The position numbers and the translations under genes were made by a program. A model generated the notes under the pieces. That model was not told the origin of the DNA. It worked only from the letters and a program-made list of their open reading frames with translations, and searched no databases. From Campylobacteraceae bacterium (GTDB taxonomy: Bacteria; Campylobacterota; Campylobacteria; Campylobacterales; Campylobacteraceae), in assembly GCA_031284315.1 (NCBI GenBank), contig JAITAB010000026.1, positions 1-64,000 of the forward strand: DNA of 64,000 bases. The letters are read 5' to 3'. Of this stretch, positions 14,476 to 36,430 are shown one piece after another (position 1 is the stretch's first letter; each line of letters begins with the position of its first letter).

Positions 14476-15336
14476 AAATTAATTTGAGAGTCTAGACTGA
14501 GAGTACTACGGCAGGTTTGACGGCATCTACAACAGTAGAAATTAATTTGAGAGTCTAGACATGCCGCGCGAGAGCGTATCGGCTGAAATCTACAAAAGTA
14601 GAAATTAATTTGAGAGTCTAGACCTCGCGTTAGGCGGGCTATGAGTTACGAATATCTACAAAAGTAGAAATTAATTTGAGAGTCTAGACTGCTATCCTTT
14701 AATAATTTTATGGTCATCATCTACAAAAGTAGAAATTAATTTGAGAGTCTAGACACTGTTTTAGTCCCGTCCGATATTTTCTATCTACAAAAGTAGAAAT
14801 TAATTTGAGAGTCTAGACGCCAAACCGCAAACACAAACAGAAGCGAATCTACAAAAGTAGAAATTAATTTGAGAGTCTAGACATCATATCCTTCTTCGGT
14901 AGTTCTTAAATCTACAAAAGTAGAAATTAATTTGAGAGTCTAGACACATATTTTTCATCTCGTCTTTGATTAATTATCTACAAAAGTAGAAATTAATTTG
15001 AGAGTCTAGACCGCACTAATTGAGAGTTATGTCAGGCGCATCTACAAAAGTAGAAATTAATTTGAGAGTCTAGACGAACTTGAAGAGAAAGACTTTAAAG
15101 AGTATCTACAAAAGTAGAAATTAATTTGAGAGTCTAGACCCTGGAAAGTGCTCTGCAAATTTCCAGTATCTACAAAAGTAGAAATTAATTTGAGAGTCTA
15201 GACCCTGTCTTACCATAAACTCTTGAATAGAGTATCTACAAAAGTAGAAATTAATTTGAGAGTCTAGACTTCCATAGCGGCCCGCGTGGCGTGATTAGAA
15301 ATCTACAAAAGTAGAAATTAATTTGAGAGTCTAGAC
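14462..15336 (-). CRISPR. CRISPR array 1 (type V-A), 14 repeats / 13 spacers, crRNA sense on minus strand
   Basis: 36-bp repeat ATCTACAAAAGTAGAAATTAATTTGAGAGTCTAGAC (crRNA sense GTCTAGACTCTCAAATTAATTTCTACTTTTGTAGAT), spacers 27-31 bp; terminal repeat 14462-14497 is degenerate. Confidence 0.99.
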
Positions 15337-15520
15337 TTTACACATAAAAATATAGCACAAAAGAGGCGATATTTCAATGTATTTTTCACTTTTTTTTGAA
15401 AACATATTTATCCCCCGTCATAAATAATGCATTTGACATTGATATGTTAAAGAACCGATGGCGTCATCATATAATACGATTCGTTAAAACAAACATAAAA
15501 AAATTAAGACTCGCCTTTGC
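15337..15520 (-). promoter_or_regulatory. Leader of CRISPR array 1
   Basis: Near-identical inverted copy of the array 2 leader (35174-35356). Confidence 0.9.
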
Positions 15521-24310: not shown

Positions 24311-27300
24311 TTAATTTCCTTCTTGCGGATTTAAAGGCAGTCTCGTCATATCTTTTGGATATACCATCCAAAAATCTCTTATAGAGTGTCTGAAACTGTT
24401 CATAATGAGTTTTGCCTTGGCGCTTTGCGTTTCGTTAATATGAGCGCGCAAAAGCCTTTTTAGTATGTGTCTTGCTTCGTCCATTTCGTCCGTGTCTATA
24501 CGCGCGGCTTTCACAAGTTCTTGATTTAATTTGTCTATAAAATCATGGTCTTTATCGTAAATAAACGCCACGCCGCCTGTCATACCTGCGCCGAAATTCA
24601 TGCCCGTTTTGCCGAGTATCAGCACTTCGCCGCCTGTCATGTATTCGCATGCGTGGTCTCCTGTGCCTTCTACTATCGCGATTGCGCCGGAGTTTCTAAC
24701 GCAAAATCTCTCGCCGACATTACCCGCGACAAAGAGTTTGCCGCCTGTCGCGCCGTAAAGACATGTATTGCCCGCACATGAAAAATACTCGCCTTGAACT
24801 TTCGGCGCGATGACTATTTTGCCGCCGTTCATTCCTTTGCCGACATAGTCATTTGCCACTCCATGCAGATTAATCGTAACGCCCTTAATCAAAAACGCGC
24901 CCAGCGACTGCCCGGCGATACCGTCAAGATTGTAAACGATGCTGTTTTCGCTCAAGCCATCGTTGCCGTAAAATTTCGCGATTTCGCCGCTTGTTTTCGC
25001 GCCGAAACTTCGGTTGGTATTGGCTATCGTTTTATTGATGACGATATATTCGTTTTTATTTTCTATGACTTTATATGCTTCTTTGAGTATTTCGCTCTCA
25101 TATTCATTTTTGTCGTACGGAGGATTTGAGGGTTTTTGACATGTATTGACGCCTTGAATATTTGTCAAAATGGAGCTAAAATCAAATTTTTTCGCAAATT
25201 CATCATCTTTTACGCTTAGAAAATAGCTGCGCCCGATAATATCCTGCAGCGACGCATAACCCAAAGAGGCAAGTATCTCTCTGACATCTTCGGCTAAAAG
25301 CGTGAAATAGTTTACTATTTTCTCAACCGTGCCGTTAAAGTTTTGCCTGCATTCGTCATTTTGAGTTGCAACGCCGACAGAACAGCGGTTCAAATGGCAC
25401 ACACGCAGCATTTTGCAGCCCAAAATCGTAAGCATGAGCGTACCGAACGCATAACTTTCGGCTCCCAAAAGAGCGGCTTTGATAATATCAAGACCGATTT
25501 TCAGACCGCCGTCTGTCTGCAAATGTACAAATTCTCTTAAATTGTTATATTTTAAAGCGTTGTGGGCTTCGCTAAGACCTATTTCCCATGGGTCGCCCGC
25601 AAATTTTATAGATGTCAGCGGAGCCGCGCCCGTACCGCCGTCATTGCCGGAAATGATGATTTTATCCGCATAAGCTTTTGCCACGCCTGCGGCTATCGTG
25701 CCAACGCCTGCGGTAGAAACGAGTTTGACGGTGATAATAGCTTCCGGATTTACTTGTTTTAAGTCAAAAATAAGCTGCGCCAAATCCTCAATAGAGTAAA
25801 TGTCATGATGAGGCGGCGGCGATATAAGCGTAACGCCGGGGATTGTATAGCGAAGGCTTGCGATGAGCGGCGTTACCTTGTGTCCGGGGAGCTGTCCGCC
25901 CTCTCCGGGTTTCGCGCCCTGCGCGACTTTTATCTGTATCTCTTTCGCGCTTCTTAGATATTCGGGCGTAACGCCGAATCTGCCTGAGGCTATCTGTTTG
26001 ATTTTGGAATTTTTAATGCTTTTAAGTCTTTCGGGAGCTTCGCCGCCTTCGCCTGAGTTTGACATACCGCCAAGTTTATACATAGCCAATGCGATAGCCT
26101 CATGCGCTTCTGGCGAAATAGAGCCAAGACTCATAGCCGCGCCGTTAAACCGCTTGAATATTTCAGACGCGGGCTCAACTTTATCTATATCTATGGGTTT
26201 TCTATCTGAAGTTATATGAAAAAAGTCGCGTATCATTTTCAGATTTCTTGAAACGATGAGGCTTTTCAAACTCTCATAGTCTGATTTCAAGCCGCTTTGC
26301 GCCGTTTTATGAATTGCATGTATGACGCTTGGTCCGTAGTCGTGATATTCGCCGCCGTCTATGTATTTGTAAAATCCGCCGATTTCCAAAGGAAACATTT
26401 TCACGCGCGTGTCAAGCTCGTAAGTTTTTGCGTGATTTTGCTCTATGCGTTTTTCAATATCGTCATAATCAAGTCCCGCCAAAAGGCTTGTAGCGTTTCT
26501 AAAACAGTCGTTTATCACCCTTGAAGATAGACCGATAACATCAAAAAGCCCTGAATTTTTATATGAAGCTATCGTTGAAATGCCCATTTTAGAGATGATT
26601 TTCAGCAATCCTTGCCCAAGCGCGTGATTGATATTTTTCAGCGCCTCTTTCGTGTCGTAACTGTCCATGTTTCTTGATTTTGCCATATCCAAAGCAGTCG
26701 CATATAGCAGATACGGGTACACGGCGCTCGCGCCAAATGCTATCAAAACAGCCGCCGAGTGCGAATCAAACGCTTCGCCCGTTATCGCTACGATAGAAGC
26801 CTTGTGTCTTACGCCGCTGTCCGAAAGAGCGTTGTTCACGCGCCCTACGACCATAGCCATGGGGATACATTTGTGCGTTTTGTCAAGCCCTCTGTCGTCC
26901 AAAAACACCATATGCACATTTTCGTTTCTGACAGCTTCCACGATGTCGTAAACCAAATCCTCCAAAGAGCCTTGCAGATTTTCCTCAAAAAGCGTTGAAA
27001 ATGTGCGGCATTTGTACTCTTTCTTATATAGCGGCTGATTCGGGTCGCCGAAACTTTTCAAAACCTCCATGCGCTCTTGCATAAGTATGGGAGAAATTGA
27101 TTTGATGCGGAAAGCATGAAGAGGCGTTTCGTCCAAAATATTATGAACCTGCCCGAAATCCGTATTTAAACTCATGACAACCATTTCTCTTATCGGGTCA
27201 ATCGGCGGATTTGTAACCTGCGCGAATTTTTGCTTGAAAAAGTCCGTGAAAAAACGCTGTTTTTGGCTGAATGCGGCAAGCGGCGTATCATCTCCCATAG

Positions 27301-28738
27301 AGCCTGTGGCTTCCTTGCCCAATTTCATCATTGGCTCTACTATCATCTCTCTTATCTCTTGCGTGATATTGTTGTAGCGTTGAAGATATTCTAAATTGTT
27401 AAACTGATAATCTTTCGTATCGGCAAACAAAATATCCACATACTCCTGCAAATAGAACATGTTTTTATTGAGCCATTCGGCATATGGGTGGGAGTTTTTC
27501 AGATAGTCGTTTATCTCGGGATTTTTCATGACTTTGCCGAATTTCAAATCCACGCCGAGCATTTCGCCGCTTTGCAGGCGTCCGCGTTCAAGGATATTTT
27601 CTTCGTCTATTTTAAGCACGCCGTATTCGCTTGCTATCAAAATCCTGTTATCTTTTGTGATGATATATTTCGCTGGGCGCAAGCCGTTTCTATCCAAAAT
27701 ACAGGCTATATATCTGCCGTCTGTTAAAGAGATAGCCGCAGGTCCGTCCCAAGGCTCAAAACTATTGCTTGAATATTCATAAAACGACCTCAATTTTGCG
27801 TCTATATGAGGCGAATTTTGCCAAGGAGCGGGTATCAAAACGCGTGCGGCTTTAAAAAAGTCATAACCGTTCGCGAGCAAAAATTCAAACATATTGTCCA
27901 AACTTGCGCTGTCGCTGACATCGTCAGCCGTAATCGGAAGCAAGGTTCGCATCTCTTTATCCGAATAAATGGAGCTTTTTAAAAATTCGCTTTTTGTTTT
28001 TAAATTGAAACGATTTGCTACGATAGAGTTTATTTCGCCGTTATGCGCAAGCGTACGAAACGGCTGCGCCAATTTCCAGCGCGGAAGCGTATTTGTAGAA
28101 AATCGTTGATGAAACAGCGCGAAAACCGCCTTAAAACTGCCGCTTTGCAAATCCTTATAAAACTCCCGCAAATAGGTCGGCATGACAAGACCTTTGTACG
28201 AGATGACTCTGTTTGAAAATGAGGGGATATAAAATTCATCGTCATCTTTAAGGGCGTTTTCAATATTGCGCCTTGTCAGATACAGAAGCGCTTCAAAGCG
28301 TTTCGTGGCAATCAGCGAATTTGGTATAACAAAAACCTGCGTAATTTTCGGAAGCGTTTTAAGCGCCAGCTCTCCCAAAGCGTTTATATCTACGGGTACA
28401 TCGCGGTACAATAGAACTTTCAAATCGTTATTTTGACAAATCTCCTCAAATACGCTCTTTTGCTCCTCTTTTGTGAAAAAAACCTGAGCTACCGCAAACT
28501 GTTTAGGCAGATCCACGCCGAGTTTTGCCGCCTCTTTTTTCATAAATTCCACAGGCAGGGAGAAAAGCAGTCCGCTTCCGTCTCCGCTTTTGCCGTCTGC
28601 GGCGATAGCGCCTCTATGCACCATTCGCTCCAAAGCAAAAATAGCGTCTTTAACAATGTCATGAGAGGCTATATTGTTAGTATTTGCAAGCAGTCCGAAA
28701 CCGCAGCTGTCTTTGTAACTTTTGTATAGTTCCATCAA
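24311..28738 (-). CDS. gltB: Glutamate synthase large subunit
   Basis: 1475 aa; CGFGLLANT N-terminal amidotransferase, GGAMSLGSISPEAHEAIA-like and GEGGEAPERL motifs. Confidence 0.97.
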   Translation of the reverse strand: MMELYKSYKDSCGFGLLANTNNIASHDIVKDAIFALERMVHRGAIAADGKSGDGSGLLFSLPVEFMKKEAAKLGVDLPKQFAVAQVFFTKEEQKSVFEEICQNNDLKVLLYRDVPVDINALGELALKTLPKITQVFVIPNSLIATKRFEALLYLTRRNIENALKDDDEFYIPSFSNRVISYKGLVMPTYLREFYKDLQSGSFKAVFALFHQRFSTNTLPRWKLAQPFRTLAHNGEINSIVANRFNLKTKSEFLKSSIYSDKEMRTLLPITADDVSDSASLDNMFEFLLANGYDFFKAARVLIPAPWQNSPHIDAKLRSFYEYSSNSFEPWDGPAAISLTDGRYIACILDRNGLRPAKYIITKDNRILIASEYGVLKIDEENILERGRLQSGEMLGVDLKFGKVMKNPEINDYLKNSHPYAEWLNKNMFYLQEYVDILFADTKDYQFNNLEYLQRYNNITQEIREMIVEPMMKLGKEATGSMGDDTPLAAFSQKQRFFTDFFKQKFAQVTNPPIDPIREMVVMSLNTDFGQVHNILDETPLHAFRIKSISPILMQERMEVLKSFGDPNQPLYKKEYKCRTFSTLFEENLQGSLEDLVYDIVEAVRNENVHMVFLDDRGLDKTHKCIPMAMVVGRVNNALSDSGVRHKASIVAITGEAFDSHSAAVLIAFGASAVYPYLLYATALDMAKSRNMDSYDTKEALKNINHALGQGLLKIISKMGISTIASYKNSGLFDVIGLSSRVINDCFRNATSLLAGLDYDDIEKRIEQNHAKTYELDTRVKMFPLEIGGFYKYIDGGEYHDYGPSVIHAIHKTAQSGLKSDYESLKSLIVSRNLKMIRDFFHITSDRKPIDIDKVEPASEIFKRFNGAAMSLGSISPEAHEAIALAMYKLGGMSNSGEGGEAPERLKSIKNSKIKQIASGRFGVTPEYLRSAKEIQIKVAQGAKPGEGGQLPGHKVTPLIASLRYTIPGVTLISPPPHHDIYSIEDLAQLIFDLKQVNPEAIITVKLVSTAGVGTIAAGVAKAYADKIIISGNDGGTGAAPLTSIKFAGDPWEIGLSEAHNALKYNNLREFVHLQTDGGLKIGLDIIKAALLGAESYAFGTLMLTILGCKMLRVCHLNRCSVGVATQNDECRQNFNGTVEKIVNYFTLLAEDVREILASLGYASLQDIIGRSYFLSVKDDEFAKKFDFSSILTNIQGVNTCQKPSNPPYDKNEYESEILKEAYKVIENKNEYIVINKTIANTNRSFGAKTSGEIAKFYGNDGLSENSIVYNLDGIAGQSLGAFLIKGVTINLHGVANDYVGKGMNGGKIVIAPKVQGEYFSCAGNTCLYGATGGKLFVAGNVGERFCVRNSGAIAIVEGTGDHACEYMTGGEVLILGKTGMNFGAGMTGGVAFIYDKDHDFIDKLNQELVKAARIDTDEMDEARHILKRLLRAHINETQSAKAKLIMNSFRHSIRDFWMVYPKDMTRLPLNPQEGN

Positions 28739-29063: not shown

Positions 29064-29069
29064 TATAAT
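29064..29069 (+). promoter_or_regulatory. Putative -10 box of the solitary crRNA-like gene
   Basis: Perfect TATAAT 11 nt upstream of the lone Cas12a handle. Confidence 0.55.
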
Positions 29070-29075
29070 GACACC

Positions 29076-29178
29076 TTGTTAATTTCTACTTCAGTAGATC
29101 GTGTGTTATATGATTAAAATATCAACTAAATGCAAATTTAATGTAGCTTTAAATATATTTGAGCTACAATTTTGTTTT
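29076..29178 (+). ncRNA. Putative CreR-like Cas12a-guiding regulatory RNA
   Basis: Lone handle TTAATTTCTACTTCAGTAGAT (29079-29099; differs from the array repeat 3' end only at two loop bases), followed by CGTGTGTTATATGATTAAAATATC and then hairpin GTAGCT...AGCTAC (29143-29167) plus AATTTTGTTTT. Confidence 0.65.
29143..29178 (+). terminator. Putative terminator of the solitary crRNA-like RNA
   Basis: GTAGCTTTAAATATATTTGAGCTAC followed by AATTTTGTTTTG. Confidence 0.5.
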
Positions 29179-29187
29179 GAAGCATAT

Positions 29188-29216
29188 TTTACGTGTGTTA
29201 ATGATAATTATATAAT
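29188..29216 (+). promoter_or_regulatory. Putative cas12a promoter overlapping a Cas12a target site (TTTA PAM + 9-nt seed)
   Basis: TTTACG (29188-29193) - 17 nt - TATAAT (29211-29216); TTTA at 29188-29191 followed by CGTGTGTTA (29192-29200), identical to the first 9 nt after the lone handle. Confidence 0.6.
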
Positions 29217-29310
29217 AAAAAAGTAGCTAAAAAAATATCATATTGCGAACACAAAAGGTACTTTATAATATTTTTGAGTTTAAAATTAAAATTGTATGGT
29301 AGGAGTCAAA

Positions 29311-32300
29311 ATGTATAATGCAAATTTTAAGGATTTTACTAATGTGTATCAAATCTCAAAAACATTGAAATTTGAGTTAATACCACAAACTACTAAAGAT
29401 GGAATTTTGGTAAAGGCTGATCAAAATTTTATTGCGGATATAATCGCAAAAGACAGAAAAATAAAAGAAGCTTATATCGCACTAAAACCAATTATGGATA
29501 AAATTCACGAAAATGTAATCAATGAGAGCCTCAATTCCGATGATGCTAAAAAAATTAACTTTTTGCCTTATTTTGAAAAATATAAAAACAAAGAAAAATT
29601 TACAGCCGAAGAAAAAAGTTTACGAAAATCCATTGGGGAAACATTCTTTAACGGTGTAAATAAAATCAAAGAAAAAGCAAGCGTTGATGGCAAAAATCAA
29701 CCAATATTTAAAAATAATGGCGTAAAATGTTTAAAAGATTTGAGAATACTTAGATATATAGAGAGAAATATAGACGAATTTGCTTGCGAAGAAGTATCTA
29801 AAATTCAAATTGAAGAATATTTAGAAACTTTTAAAAATTTTTTCACATATTTTTCAGGCTACAATCAAAATAGGGAAAATTATTATGCTACAGATAAAAA
29901 ACAATCAACCGCAATCGCGACAAGAATAGTCCATGATAATTTACCAAAGTTTTGTGATAATTGTTTACAATTTGAGTTTGGAAAAATTTCTAAAAAGAAA
30001 TCTAATAAAAAAAATGCAGACAACGACACAGAAATAAAATCCAGAAAAAATGAATACCTGAATGTGTATCAATTTCTAAAAGCAACCAACATAGATACAA
30101 AAGTAAAAGACGCACAAACCAATTTGAGAGAGTCTGAGCCTGTAGATGAAAAAATGTTTAAAATTGATATATTTTCTCATTGCTTGTCGCAAAAAGGCAT
30201 TGAAGAATATAATAGAAAAATTGGAGATTATAATTTTTTAATAAATCTTTATAATCAGTCAAAAAATAATGAAAAAAATTTTAAAAAATTGGAACCATTT
30301 AAAACTCTCAATAAGCAAATTGGCTGCGGAAAAAAGAAAATGCCTTTTTTGGCATTAAAATATGATACACGAAAAGATCAAGAGAATGCATTGCAAGGTT
30401 ATGAAAACAAAAATGATACGATATTTAACCTTCAAGAATTACTATCCAAAATAGATAGCGCATGCAAAATGTTTTTCAAGAAAAAACCAAATGAATCTGA
30501 TATACGCAGTGTTCCTGCTTTTAACGAATGGATAAAAAGTTGCCAAAATTGGAATGGTATTTATTGGTCAAAAAGCGCTGTTAATATTATTTCAAATAAA
30601 TACCTATCAAATTGGCATGAAATAGAAGAATTTATACAAGTCAATTTGCAAGACAAAAATAAAAAAAAGTATTATAAAGCTGTGGCAACTTATGACAAAA
30701 AGAGGGAAGAGCAATTAAAACTAAATGATGCTGTCGAATTGTCGGGGCTATTTGAACTTCTTGATAATAATACACAAACTGATTGGAGCAAGGCATTTTT
30801 TAAGGAATCTATTTTAGAGGATGAGAGTTTTAAAAAAATAATTAATGAAAATATTTCTCCAAGTAGAAATATTATTAATTTGATATGTGCTGACATAGAC
30901 AAGAATATACAAAATACTTTTAGCTTGTCTCATGAAATATTGAATATTGTGGACTATAAAGACGAAAACAATAAGACAAAAATAAAAAATTGGTTAGATG
31001 GTATCGTTGAAGTTATTAAAATATTGAAAAATTTTTCTGTTAAAGCAGATAAAATAAAAGGTGGACCTATTAATCCTGAGCTATCTAATGCTCTTTATAT
31101 ACTATTGTATTCTGATGATATTTTATGGTTTAAATGGTACGATATTATCAGAAATTATCTGACTAAAAAGCCTCAAGATGACGCCAAAAAAAACAAACTC
31201 AAACTCAATTTTGATTGCAGTGTTTTGCTTGGCGGTTTCAGTGATGGTCAAGAGAAAAATAAACGTGCCATTATTTTGAAAAATGAGAGTAAATATTACT
31301 TGGGGATACTTATAAAAACCTCTCTTTTTGATACAGAAAAAAAAGACAATCTTATGTATAAAACATCTGACAGCAGTGTCGAACGTCTCATACTGAAAAA
31401 TTTAGCATTTAAAACTCTTGCAGGTAAGGGATTTGTGAGCAAATATAAAGAAAAGTATAGCGATATTGGAAAACGCAACCCTCAAGAAGCAATCGAAAAA
31501 TTACAGATATTTATCAAAGAAAATTATGAAAAAAAATATCCATTACTAAAAAATATTACCAATAAAAAGTATATAAATAAGAAATTATTTGATGAAGAAG
31601 TAACAAAAATATTGGCGGATTGTTATGATTGCAGTTTTATACCTATAAATTGGAACGAAGTTTTAAAGGCTATTTCAACAAAATATAAGAACAAATTCAA
31701 TGAATTATATTTGTTTGAGATTTATAGTAAGGATTTTTCTGAAAAAAGTGCTGGCAAAAAAAATCTGCAAACGCTTTATTGGGAACATATTTTCCAAGAA
31801 GACAGTACAATGCAATTATGTGGTGGTGGTGAAATATTTTATAGAGAGCGAGCTATAGAAGAGAATGAAATAATAATTCATGAGAAAGATAAACCAATAC
31901 ATAGAAGGAGTGATGATAGGACTGTAAGTGTTTTTGATTATGATATTATTAAGGATAGAAGATTTACAGAAGACAAATATTTTTTTCATATTCCTATAAA
32001 AATAAATTATACAAAATCAGTAAATAATGATATAAATAATGATATAAATAATGCATTTGTTTTGTCTGATGATATTCAATTTTTTGGTATTGATAGAGGC
32101 GAAAATCATCTAATTTATTACTCATTAATTTCTAAAGATGGAGCAATAAAAGAACAGGATAGTTTAAATATCATCAATGGAAAAGACTACTATAATGCAA
32201 TTTATGAAAAATCAAAAAAGCGGCAGGATAGTAGAAAGAATTGGCATGAAATAGGCAACATTCGCAACCTAAAAGATGGATATATTTCCGTCGTGCTTTA

Positions 32301-33366
32301 TGAAATTATTAAAAAAATTATTGATCTGAAAAATTTCAAACCAACTTTTATTGTTTTGGAAGATCTAAATACCGGTTTTAAGCGCAAACGCCAAAAAGTT
32401 GAAAAGCAAGTTTATCAAAAATTTGAATTAGCTTTGGCAAAGAAGCTTAATTATTTAGTGTACAAAGACATTTCTAATGGAGATATTGGATCAGTGTATA
32501 ATGCTCTGCAATTGACACCACCTGTAACGAATTATCAAGACATTGAAAATAAAAAACAAGTCGGCATTATACTATATACTCGTGCCAATTATACTTCTGT
32601 AACCGACCCGATAACGGGATGGCGAAAAACAATCTATCTGAAAACTGGTAGCGAAGAATATATTAAAAAGCAAATTATGGGGGTTTTTTCTGATATTGGT
32701 ATAGACGAATATGGCGACTACTTTTTTGAATATGTTGATCAAGCGAACAAAATATGGCGATTATGGTCAAGCAAAAATGGGAAATCTTTGGAACGCTATA
32801 AATATAAAAAAGGTAATGATAAAAAAGAAGGTACGGTTGAATTTTATAACATAAAAGATGATTATTTAGATATATTATTTAGAATTTTCAACAAAAAAGA
32901 ATCCTTACTGCAGCAATTAAAAAATGGCGTTATGTTGTCAAAAATTCCCAACCATAATTATACAGCATGGGAATCGCTTCGTTTTGCAATCGACCTTATT
33001 CAACAAATAAGAAATTCGGGTGATATAAATAAAAAACAACCTGTTAATTTTTTACATTCTCCAATAAGAAATAATAAAGGAGAACATTTTGATTCGCGTC
33101 TTTATCAATATCAAGAAAATGCTAAATTTCCCAAAGATGGAGATGCAAATGGCGCTTATAATATTGCCCGCAAAGGTATAATTATGTATGAACATATCAA
33201 GATGTGGAGTAAAAAAAATAATGAGGGCGAAAAGATTGATTTGAATTTATTTGTTTCAGATGAAGAATGGGATCTTTGGCTCAATGATAATAAATCATGG
33301 TTGGATAAATTAGCTTCTTTTGCTTTCAAAAATCAAAAAGAAAATCAAACCGATATGCAAAAATGA
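29311..33366 (+). CDS. cas12a: CRISPR-associated endonuclease Cas12a (Cpf1), type V-A
   Basis: Cas12a N-terminus MYNANFKDFTNVYQISKTLKFELIPQ; RuvC motifs FFGIDRGENHLIYY, FIVLEDLNTGFKRKRQKVEKQVYQKFE and DANGAYNIARKG present. The start at 29311 is preferred over 29296 because TAGGAG sits just upstream of it. Confidence 0.98.
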   Translation: MYNANFKDFTNVYQISKTLKFELIPQTTKDGILVKADQNFIADIIAKDRKIKEAYIALKPIMDKIHENVINESLNSDDAKKINFLPYFEKYKNKEKFTAEEKSLRKSIGETFFNGVNKIKEKASVDGKNQPIFKNNGVKCLKDLRILRYIERNIDEFACEEVSKIQIEEYLETFKNFFTYFSGYNQNRENYYATDKKQSTAIATRIVHDNLPKFCDNCLQFEFGKISKKKSNKKNADNDTEIKSRKNEYLNVYQFLKATNIDTKVKDAQTNLRESEPVDEKMFKIDIFSHCLSQKGIEEYNRKIGDYNFLINLYNQSKNNEKNFKKLEPFKTLNKQIGCGKKKMPFLALKYDTRKDQENALQGYENKNDTIFNLQELLSKIDSACKMFFKKKPNESDIRSVPAFNEWIKSCQNWNGIYWSKSAVNIISNKYLSNWHEIEEFIQVNLQDKNKKKYYKAVATYDKKREEQLKLNDAVELSGLFELLDNNTQTDWSKAFFKESILEDESFKKIINENISPSRNIINLICADIDKNIQNTFSLSHEILNIVDYKDENNKTKIKNWLDGIVEVIKILKNFSVKADKIKGGPINPELSNALYILLYSDDILWFKWYDIIRNYLTKKPQDDAKKNKLKLNFDCSVLLGGFSDGQEKNKRAIILKNESKYYLGILIKTSLFDTEKKDNLMYKTSDSSVERLILKNLAFKTLAGKGFVSKYKEKYSDIGKRNPQEAIEKLQIFIKENYEKKYPLLKNITNKKYINKKLFDEEVTKILADCYDCSFIPINWNEVLKAISTKYKNKFNELYLFEIYSKDFSEKSAGKKNLQTLYWEHIFQEDSTMQLCGGGEIFYRERAIEENEIIIHEKDKPIHRRSDDRTVSVFDYDIIKDRRFTEDKYFFHIPIKINYTKSVNNDINNDINNAFVLSDDIQFFGIDRGENHLIYYSLISKDGAIKEQDSLNIINGKDYYNAIYEKSKKRQDSRKNWHEIGNIRNLKDGYISVVLYEIIKKIIDLKNFKPTFIVLEDLNTGFKRKRQKVEKQVYQKFELALAKKLNYLVYKDISNGDIGSVYNALQLTPPVTNYQDIENKKQVGIILYTRANYTSVTDPITGWRKTIYLKTGSEEYIKKQIMGVFSDIGIDEYGDYFFEYVDQANKIWRLWSSKNGKSLERYKYKKGNDKKEGTVEFYNIKDDYLDILFRIFNKKESLLQQLKNGVMLSKIPNHNYTAWESLRFAIDLIQQIRNSGDINKKQPVNFLHSPIRNNKGEHFDSRLYQYQENAKFPKDGDANGAYNIARKGIIMYEHIKMWSKKNNEGEKIDLNLFVSDEEWDLWLNDNKSWLDKLASFAFKNQKENQTDMQK

Positions 33367-33932
33367 TGCACAACTACATCGCCATATCAACTTTAAATGA
33401 TTTTATATTTTGTCCGTATTCTATTTATTTGCATAATGTTTACATGGGCGGCGATGAGGAGTTGGTGCATGCTGTTCCGCAAACGCGCGGTAAAGTCGCA
33501 CATGGGACGATTGACAATAAAAATTACAGCAGTAGAAAAGATGAGATAACGGGTTTGCCTGTTTATTGCGGCGAGCTTGGTATTGTCGGAAATATAGATA
33601 TTTACAAAACCAAAGAAAAATTACTTATAGAGCGAAAATATCAAATCAATGAAATTTATCAGGGTCAGATTTATCAGCTTTGGGCGGAATATTTTTGCAT
33701 GATTGAGATGGGATATGATGTCAAAAATCTGGCTTTTTACGCAATATCTACCAATAAAACTTTTCCCGCAGCCGTTCCAAATGAGGAAAATAAAAAAGAA
33801 TTGCAGGATTTTATTTTGAAATTTAAGCAGTTTGACCCAGAACAATCTATCTCAATCAATACAAACAAATGCACGCATTGCATATATTGCGCATTGTGCG
33901 ATAAAGTGGATATTGAAAATGTTTACGCATAA
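33363..33932 (+). CDS. cas4: CRISPR-associated protein Cas4
   Basis: Position between cas12a and cas1; GxxxH near residue 47, ERK motif, C-terminal CxxCxxCxxC-type cysteines (KCTHCIYCALC). Confidence 0.93.
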   Translation: MMHNYIAISTLNDFIFCPYSIYLHNVYMGGDEELVHAVPQTRGKVAHGTIDNKNYSSRKDEITGLPVYCGELGIVGNIDIYKTKEKLLIERKYQINEIYQGQIYQLWAEYFCMIEMGYDVKNLAFYAISTNKTFPAAVPNEENKKELQDFILKFKQFDPEQSISINTNKCTHCIYCALCDKVDIENVYA

Positions 33933-34890
33933 AGATATAGAGTACCGCTCTATTTTTGTCATAAATTGCATTAAGGATAGATCGTTGCGTGTCGCGAACG
34001 GAGAGTTGCTGCTTGAGAATATTGAAGAGAAAAAGACGCTTACAAAGCTGCCGTTTCAGAAAATATTGGCGCTGTTTGTCATAGGACATGCGAGTATTAC
34101 GACTCCATTAATTGACAAATGCACCAGATACGGGATATCGCTTGTCGTGATGAAGCAAAACCTAAGACCTGTTTTCTTCTTTTCCATCACAGCCGAAGCC
34201 AATTTTTTACTTCGCAAAAAGCAGTATGAGTATGATAAGGAAAATTTGCAAATTCCAAAAATATTGGTAACAAACAAGATAAAAAATCAGTTGAGTTTAT
34301 TGAGAAAAACCCGCCTGAAAACGGACAATATACAAAAAGCAAAAGAGCAGTGCGCAGCCATTTTATCTCTAATCCCGAATGCTTCAAATTATGATGTCGT
34401 TATGGGGCTTGAGGGCAAGGCGGCAACGATTTTTTTCTCTGTTTATTTTGAACCGTTTGCTTGGAAAAACCGCTCTCCCAGAACAAAGATAGACCCGATA
34501 AATGCGACTCTTGATATTGGCTATACTATATTGTTCAATTATATTGAGGTATTTGTCCGACTGTTTGGATTTGACCCATATAAAGGCGTTTATCATCAGC
34601 TCTGGTTTAAGCGTAAGTCGCTGGTTTGTGATTTGGTGGAGCCTTTTCGCTGCATAATAGACAAGCAGGTCAGAAAAGCTTTTGGCGTTCAACAGTGCAA
34701 AGCGGAGGATTTCAACTTTATCAAAAATGAGTATATTTTAAAACGCGAAAAAAACAGCGACTATACTAAAATGTTTTATGATGTATTGATAGAACAAAAA
34801 GCGGCAATTTTTAATTATATGCGTCAATTTTATCGTTGTTTTATGCAGCAAAACTATGTGTCGGAATACCCTCAATTTTTAATGGAGTAA
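33919..34890 (+). CDS. cas1: CRISPR-associated integrase Cas1
   Basis: LEGKAATIFFSVYFEPFAWKNRSPRTKIDPINATLDIGYTILFNYIE is a Cas1 core; start MFTHKDIEYRSIFVIN at 33919 preferred over 33832. Confidence 0.95.
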   Translation: MFTHKDIEYRSIFVINCIKDRSLRVANGELLLENIEEKKTLTKLPFQKILALFVIGHASITTPLIDKCTRYGISLVVMKQNLRPVFFFSITAEANFLLRKKQYEYDKENLQIPKILVTNKIKNQLSLLRKTRLKTDNIQKAKEQCAAILSLIPNASNYDVVMGLEGKAATIFFSVYFEPFAWKNRSPRTKIDPINATLDIGYTILFNYIEVFVRLFGFDPYKGVYHQLWFKRKSLVCDLVEPFRCIIDKQVRKAFGVQQCKAEDFNFIKNEYILKREKNSDYTKMFYDVLIEQKAAIFNYMRQFYRCFMQQNYVSEYPQFLME

Positions 34891-34895
34891 ATTAT

Positions 34896-35171
34896 ATGCT
34901 TGTTGTGAGTTACGATATATCAAACGATAAATTAAGAAGTAGATTTTCAAAAACGCTTGAAAGATACGGCGGCATTAGACTGCAATACTCTGTTTTTGAA
35001 GTTAATAACTCGAAAAGAGTCATGGATACTTTAAAAATAAAAATAGAAAATATATTTGCCAAACAATTTGGCGGAGAAGACAGTATTTTTATATTTGAAA
35101 CGGATGAAAAGAAGGCGGTTAAATATGGAAATGCAATTCATAGAGATCAAGAACTGCTGTTTTTCACATAA
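34896..35171 (+). CDS. cas2: CRISPR-associated endoribonuclease Cas2
   Basis: MLVVSYDISNDKLRSRFSKTLERYGGIRLQYSVFEV is a canonical Cas2 N-terminus; start at 34896. Confidence 0.96.
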   Translation: MLVVSYDISNDKLRSRFSKTLERYGGIRLQYSVFEVNNSKRVMDTLKIKIENIFAKQFGGEDSIFIFETDEKKAVKYGNAIHRDQELLFFT

Positions 35172-35356: not shown

Positions 35357-36430
35357 GTCTAGACTCTCAAATTAATTTCTACTTTTATAGATACGCGGAC
35401 ACGCCCACATCGCTTTATGAAAGGTCTAGACTCTCAAATTAATTTCTACTTTTATAGATATGCGTTTTTCATACTCTGCAATTATTTCTTGTCTAGACTC
35501 TCAAATTAATTTCTACTTTTATAGATTGTCAATATACCGCCCGCCTGTTAATTTGTCTAGACTCTCAAATTAATTTCTACTTTTATAGATAATTATCGCA
35601 GATTGTCATTGTCGCGGGTCTAGACTCTCAAATTAATTTCTACTTTTATAGATGCGCCGCAACTACAGCCAGCCATGGTTTACTGTGTCTAGACTCTCAA
35701 ATTAATTTCTACTTTTATAGATATATATTCATTCCAGACGGGCTTATTTGGTCTAGACTCTCAAATTAATTTCTACTTTTATAGATACGGGCGGTTTGGG
35801 GCTTCATGACGGAGGTCTAGACTCTCAAATTAATTTCTACTTTTATAGATGAAAGAGCCTCTTTGATAAGCTCCTGTGTGGTCTAGACTCTCAAATTAAT
35901 TTCTACTTTTGTAGATATAATGTAAGAGCAATCTATTTTATTAATAGTCTAGACTCTCAAATTAATTTCTACTTTTGTAGATAAGCGCTTAAAGCAAAAC
36001 TTGGCAAAATATGTCTAGACTCTCAAATTAATTTCTACTTTTGTAGATAACAGCGCACAAGATTTAGCCACAACAGTCTAGACTCTCAAATTAATTTCTA
36101 CTTTTGTAGATATTTTCTCGCTTATGTCAGATTTAGTTTGTCTAGACTCTCAAATTAATTTCTACTTTTGTAGATATTATCTCATCTACTTTGGCATTTA
36201 TCTCGTCTAGACTCTCAAATTAATTTCTACTTTTGTAGATAGCCTGACGGGTGATTGAGTTTTTACTCAGTCTAGACTCTCAAATTAATTTCTACTTTTG
36301 TAGATAATGAGTTCCCTATTGATAGAGTAGAGTCTAGACTCTCAAATTAATTTCTACTTTTGTAGATTAACAAGTTTGCCCTTCATAATGTCCCAGTATA
36401 GACTCATGAAATAATTTCTATTTTTCACAT
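35357..36430 (+). CRISPR. CRISPR array 2 (type V-A), 16 repeats plus one degenerate terminal repeat, 16 spacers
   Basis: GTCTAGACTCTCAAATTAATTTCTACTTTT(A/G)TAGAT repeats, spacers 26-33 bp; repeats 1-8 carry A and 9-16 carry G; degenerate terminal copy starts at 36396. Confidence 0.99.

Follow-up and report, generated by a model that had tools for sequence, protein, structure and literature searches.

A probable stand-alone CreR-type guide RNA ahead of cas12a in a Campylobacteraceae genome, and its covariation with the cas12a promoter among relatives

The intergenic region ahead of cas12a in a Campylobacteraceae bacterium carries a solitary Cas12a crRNA handle, raising the question of whether this element is a remnant of a CRISPR array or belongs to a small RNA directing Cas12a to its own promoter. 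The window, that is, the whole stretch of DNA analysed here, covers 64 kb of a 158.6-kb contig belonging to a 1.83-Mb genome; in it gltB is followed by the intergenic region, the genes cas12a-cas4-cas1-cas2 and a CRISPR array (Table 1). A sequence-only reading of the window had interpreted the element as an autorepressor, and this interpretation is supported by covariation within the genus and by recurrence in unrelated phyla, from which we infer the repression itself. It is highly probable, judging from these sequence comparisons, that positions 29064-29178 constitute a stand-alone type V-A CreR gene, whose RNA would guide Cas12a to repress its own operon.

Table 1. Features of the cas12a locus and its surroundings (positions are those of the window).
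Feature	Position	Strand	Remarks
Second V-A CRISPR array in the window	14525-15355	-	
gltB	24311-28738	-	
-10 element (TATAAT) of the putative guide RNA, T-run upstream	29064-29069	+	TATAAT also precedes the handle in G356, G402 and G404
Solitary Cas12a crRNA handle, TTAATTTCTACTTCAGTAGAT	29079-29099	+	truncated repeat, loop TTCA; stem predicted by folding
Guide seed, CGTGTGTTA, same letters as the promoter site beside the PAM	29100-29108	+	seed and site covary within the genus
Skipped guide nucleotide T, predicted RNA bulge	29109	+	
Second pairing block, ATGAT	29110-29114	+	pairs with 29201-29205 past the bulge
Hairpin resembling a terminator (29142-29149 with 29161-29168), then a U-rich tail	29142-29178	+	predicted by folding
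Predicted cas12a promoter, TTTACG-17-TATAAT	29188-29216	+	10/12 consensus positions
TTTA PAM of the promoter target	29188-29191	+	TTTA in nearly all relatives, even without a PAM requirement in the scan
Target site, CGTGTGTTA plus ATGAT	29192-29205	+	shares positions with the -35-like element and the spacer in the predicted promoter
cas12a	29311-33366	+	TIGR04330, 514 bits; RuvC motifs GIDRG, LEDL and DANGA present
cas4, cas1, cas2, same operon as cas12a	33363-35171	+	
V-A CRISPR array yielding crRNAs in putative competition for Cas12a	35358-36430	+	

Comparison with the intact array repeat bore out the claim that the handle is a repeat lacking its 5' part (the first 15 nt, GTCTAGACTCTCAAA) and altered in the loop alone (TTT to TCA); the handle pattern has a chance expectation of 0.01 in the window. 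The TATAAT ends 9 nt before the handle, and transcription from it would start a few nucleotides ahead of the handle, making upstream processing unnecessary. The guide that follows, CGTGTGTTATATGATT, begins at 29100 and may, according to fold prediction, fold weakly on itself. Regarding the proposed terminator, a hairpin with 8-nt arms, beginning 42 nt past the handle, and a U-rich tail are present; the terminator is weak: a consensus terminator scan of the region gave no match, the hairpin (29142-29168) lying under its threshold. The hairpin was found by folding. Rfam contained no relevant family. The element is crRNA-like, with a Cas12a handle, and stands outside the arrays and near the cas locus, and each coordinate of the sequence-only reading (TATAAT, handle, guide, PAM, seed site and promoter) was correct.

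The claimed PAM-flanked seed match at the best predicted cas12a promoter is also present: the first 9 nt of the guide recur at 29192-29200, directly behind TTTA, and TTTACG-17-TATAAT, with its TATAAT at 29211-29216, ranks jointly first among the promoter-like matches of the region. TTTV followed by CGTGTGTTA occurs a single time in the 1.83-Mb genome, at 29188-29200. The guide is thus partially complementary to a cas promoter beside the correct PAM, and this complementarity (9 contiguous nt, 14 with a bulge) lies below what cleavage needs. The uniqueness of the site bears on a CreA-type antitoxin RNA, in which the guide would repress a toxin gene and make the cells dependent on Cas12a. Although CreTA modules use similar, partially matching crRNA-like guides (PMC12737573), the only PAM-plus-seed site of this genome is the cas12a promoter and not that of an adjacent toxin gene, and no separate ORF of at least 80 aa, a threshold that smaller toxins would not reach, lies between the handle and cas12a; we consider this explanation extremely improbable. 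A second TATAAT at 29264-29269, downstream of the target site, could drive cas12a from beyond an initiation block by the bound complex. As the start of cas12a, the ATG at 29311, with AGGAG ahead of it, is more likely than 29296.

On this genome alone, the seed match exceeds chance only moderately. The probability that chance alone yields a match of 9 nt or more beside a PAM is about 1e-3 for Markov guides and 3e-4 for real 15-mers of the window, since 18 TTTV sites lie near the promoter in an AT-rich region; the earlier figure of once in 262,144 positions ignored both circumstances and was too strong. A chance of about 1e-3 is compatible with a relic of a CRISPR array, namely a degenerate solitary repeat upstream of cas12a with a fortuitous 9-nt match. 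The handle corresponds to an array repeat in truncated form, orphan or terminal repeats are common, and in the genome G321 a similar promoter and handle stand without cas genes and now lead to an ordinary spacer followed by a repeat remnant. Such a relic is nevertheless very unlikely, as it is contradicted by the covariation in four genomes and the recurrence in unrelated phyla described below, and by the promoter and hairpin, which are retained around the handle across the genus despite sequence drift. As far as sequences can tell, it is the relatives and not the single genome that decide the question of the seed match.

Fourteen genomes of the genus were searched by protein; Cas12a was found in four, and G356 adds an N-terminal cas12a fragment. 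Lone handles were found ahead of cas12a in three further genomes, G356, G402 and G404 (L022, a Campylobacteraceae MAG of the same genus, has the handle coordinates of G404), and the hairpin occupies the matching place in all four members, its sequence differing in G402, G404 and G356. In G402 and G404 the handle adjoins what reads, by sequence, as the C-terminus of a seryl-tRNA synthetase-like protein, and in G356 it adjoins gltB, implying that the guide RNA travels with cas12a and not with a chromosomal site. The guides and their sites (lower case marking a skipped guide nucleotide, or a G opposite T) are CGTGTGTTA-t-ATGAT and CGTGTGTTA-ATGAT in the window, TATGTATTG-c-gCAAT and TATGTATTG-ACAAT in G356, TGTGTgTCA-t-ACAAT and TGTGTATCA-ACAAT in G402, and TGTGAGTTA-t-gCAAT and TGTGAGTTA-ACAAT in G404. 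Each guide fits its own site (9/9 in the window, G356 and G404; 8/9 in G402, where the mismatch at nt 6 is an rG:dT wobble) better than the sites of the others (5-7/9). The sequence after the handle has changed in G356, G402 and G404, as has the promoter site, and the pairing was retained, so that guide-promoter pairing is preserved among relatives despite drift. The sequence-only reading had named conservation of the handle without the pairing as an outcome that would refute it; the opposite was seen in the genus, and this covariation speaks for selection acting on a regulatory guide.

The target site of G404, G402 and G356 lies approximately 25-60 nt ahead of the start codon, and with so short a distance elongation or translation signals, and not initiation, may be blocked. 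No such lone RNA was found at the cas12a locus of G398, a member of the same genus in which cas12a adjoins a tRNA gene. In G356 (L007 1-460, minus strand) a short N-terminal cas12a fragment with a stop is followed by a second cas12a-like start at the contig end. In G321 (L100 1870-2010, on G321:C5), where cas12a was not detected, a CreR-like promoter and handle stand beside a serS-like C-terminus; from its sequence, this locus looks like the product of a recombination between a CreR handle and an array repeat in which the cas genes were lost.

The survey of other lineages comprised 80 Cas12a loci from species genomes, and the full count covered 87 contexts. In a scan without a PAM requirement, the guides of L022, L031, L059, L077 and L081 had seeds matching their own promoters over 8-15 nt, in all cases beside TTTA, and the guide of L084 pairs with its own promoter with one rG:dT wobble. 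L031 and L081 belong to Bacteroidales and L077 and L084 to Coriobacteriia, whereas L059 is an alphaproteobacterial MAG. Further matches came from a wider scan, of 12 nt in L037 and in L064 and of 9 nt (TTTG) in L060. Overall, in the 87 contexts, 9 of 16 lone handles had a seed of 8 nt or more beside a TTTN PAM in their own promoter, the 16 being a set that includes one masked locus (L078) and genus members related to one another; the controls, with the same minimum seed length, gave 1 of 1,376 pairings of guides with other promoters and 2 of 844 array spacers. An out-of-sample set of 15 later Cas12a loci contained one clear lone upstream handle, L125, which matches 9 nt beside TTTA in its own promoter. 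In every matching lone-handle locus, across unrelated phyla, the PAM beside the site is T-rich. Campylobacteraceae, Bacteroidales, Coriobacteriia and other MAGs thus provide what would be natural replicates of Cas12a autorepression.

Most of the scanned Cas12a loci had no lone guide RNA upstream, and lone handles downstream of cas12a in L025, L030 and L071 showed no promoter match. The wider scan also gave matches in L049 (8 nt, TTTC) and L054 (7 nt), both of them weak and possibly due to chance. Both array-spacer matches are terminal spacers with 12 nt beside TTTA, at about +6672 (L037) and +6203 (L064) relative to cas12a, the guide of the latter being cut off by the contig end; a CreR function may reside at the distal array end in these two loci. 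Relaxed-pattern array hits in L061 and L089 were discarded, as their repeats had been read in reverse. No Cas12a was confirmed among 120 candidate stretches of viral contigs, and a search of plasmids gave one distant Butyrivibrio record.

These comparisons also bear on regulation in cis, in which transcription from 29064 would run on into cas12a, the handle would form part of the 5' leader, and Cas12a would cut its own mRNA at that place, creating a post-transcriptional feedback. Cas12a processes pre-crRNA at the handle motif, and in the window the handle shares its strand with cas12a and is preceded by a good -10 element. However, the hairpin and U-rich tail stand between the handle and cas12a, and regulation in cis leaves unexplained the PAM-flanked seed matches downstream, the opposite-strand sites in L031, L081 and L125, and the handles located far downstream of cas12a in L037 and L060. 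We therefore give this mechanism very little credence.

The sequence-only reading had mentioned that an ATGAT match follows the seed if one base is bulged. This match exists, with nucleotide 29109 skipped, and it is no mere curiosity, as the same geometry recurs in relatives. Among 14 guide-site pairs, at least 5 of 6 post-seed nucleotides match in five pairs when one guide nucleotide is skipped and in one pair when two are skipped; no pair reached this level with target-side skips (shifts -1 and -2), and neither these nor ungapped continuation past the seed gave an excess. When tails were shuffled between pairs, the probability for the +1 shift was 6e-5; with each lineage represented by one pair, most choices of pair gave 0.0018 and the worst gave 0.02, values that refer to a bulge spotted post hoc and to about three independent lineages showing the 1-nt form and one showing the 2-nt form. 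The 1-nt bulge is found in the four genomes of the genus, in L031 and in L059, and the 2-nt form in L084 and, less clearly, in L077; L081 is an exception, with 15 contiguous nt and no bulge. We tentatively suggest, as a possibility that falls short of even chances, that type V-A CreRs recurrently carry a guide bulge of 1-2 nt after a seed of 8-10 nt, followed by about five pairs, as an evolved code to bind and not cut for a nuclease-active Cas12a. If true, this rule would represent a natural design by which Cas12a keeps full activity and yet binds without cleavage, and a directly testable account of how self-cleavage is avoided at a PAM-flanked site in its own genome. The post-seed bulge is possibly a new detail and is offered as a lead.

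For the window RNA as a CreR, we infer the following course: it would be transcribed, its transcript ending at the hairpin (29142-29168), and loaded through the handle on Cas12a, which would be guided to TTTA plus CGTGTGTTA within its own promoter. Pairing would extend over 9 nt, skip guide nucleotide 10 and resume for 5 nt, which may suffice for binding but would be too short and too interrupted for cleavage, so that the bound Cas12a would block RNA polymerase. The window Cas12a is probably an active nuclease, as all three RuvC motifs were found; full pairing at a PAM-flanked site would then be expected to cut the chromosome, and the site must therefore fall short of full complementarity. Expression of cas12a-cas4-cas1-cas2 would be set by the Cas12a free of array crRNAs, which would relieve repression by competing for the protein. 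With 15-nt spacers, wild-type AsCas12a binds without cleavage, and the resulting repression in human cells is weak (PMC11919711).

Standalone repeats in CRISPR-cas loci, with spacers partly matching cas promoters and with type V-A reportedly included, are said to have been described by Shmakov and co-workers in 2023; most of those examples are reportedly type I mini-arrays with two repeats, whereas the window RNA has one. Workman and co-workers reportedly described in 2021 autorepression of Cas9 by a natural single guide, the long tracrRNA. That system resembles the window RNA, as interpreted here, in that a short natural guide reportedly makes an active nuclease bind its own promoter without cutting, and differs from it in being type II, with the guide inside the tracrRNA and an unrelated scaffold.

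Autorepression by Cas12a through a type V-A CreR has already been published (Liu et al. 2023, PMID 37659410, as relayed in PMC13131331 and PMC12737573). According to these two accounts, that RNA is crRNA-like, has limited complementarity to a cas promoter and supports a Cas12a autorepression that competes with crRNAs, as would the window RNA, which by its sequence is of this published kind and has unusually good comparative support. Compared with what these accounts relay, the window RNA occurs in a new host lineage, Campylobacteraceae, and has one truncated handle, its own -10 element, no second repeat and a post-seed guide bulge.

Type V-A RNA anti-CRISPRs (Racrs) also exist and inhibit the V-A system of Moraxella bovoculi (PMC10651486). 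Like the window RNA, they consist of a solitary repeat directly past a promoter, with a handle potentially bound by Cas; unlike it, they are encoded by phages or plasmids and act against Cas, whereas the window RNA lies in the host cas locus and its seed matches a promoter. A phage-derived repeat titrating Cas12a might be considered because other lone handles of the genus adjoin phage repressors, but the window handle lies between gltB and cas12a with no adjacent phage gene, and the action of a Racr needs no match to the cas12a promoter, which the window guide and its relatives possess; a Racr at this locus is hardly credible. In two genomes of the same genus, lone handles lie near genes for phage CI-like or other phage-type repressors (L103 1974-1992 and L105 1743-1761) and are, by sequence, candidate V-A Racr RNAs. 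The genome of the window also has a perfect 19-nt Cas12a handle inside the coding region for a prophage head-tail adaptor (L099 1753-1771, G000:C26:10752-10770), possibly as an embedded RNA anti-CRISPR and possibly by chance.

A third V-A array is located elsewhere in the genome (G000:C28:34128-35022), and with three arrays the lone guide RNA would face competition from all of them. The leader of the second array of the window (14525-15319, minus strand) is almost identical to that of the first. At 35374-35850, eight leader-proximal repeats of the array beside the cas genes are TTTTATAGAT and not TTTTGTAGAT, with loss of the loop-closing pair of the Cas12a handle, and the newer spacers behind these repeats may give weaker crRNAs.
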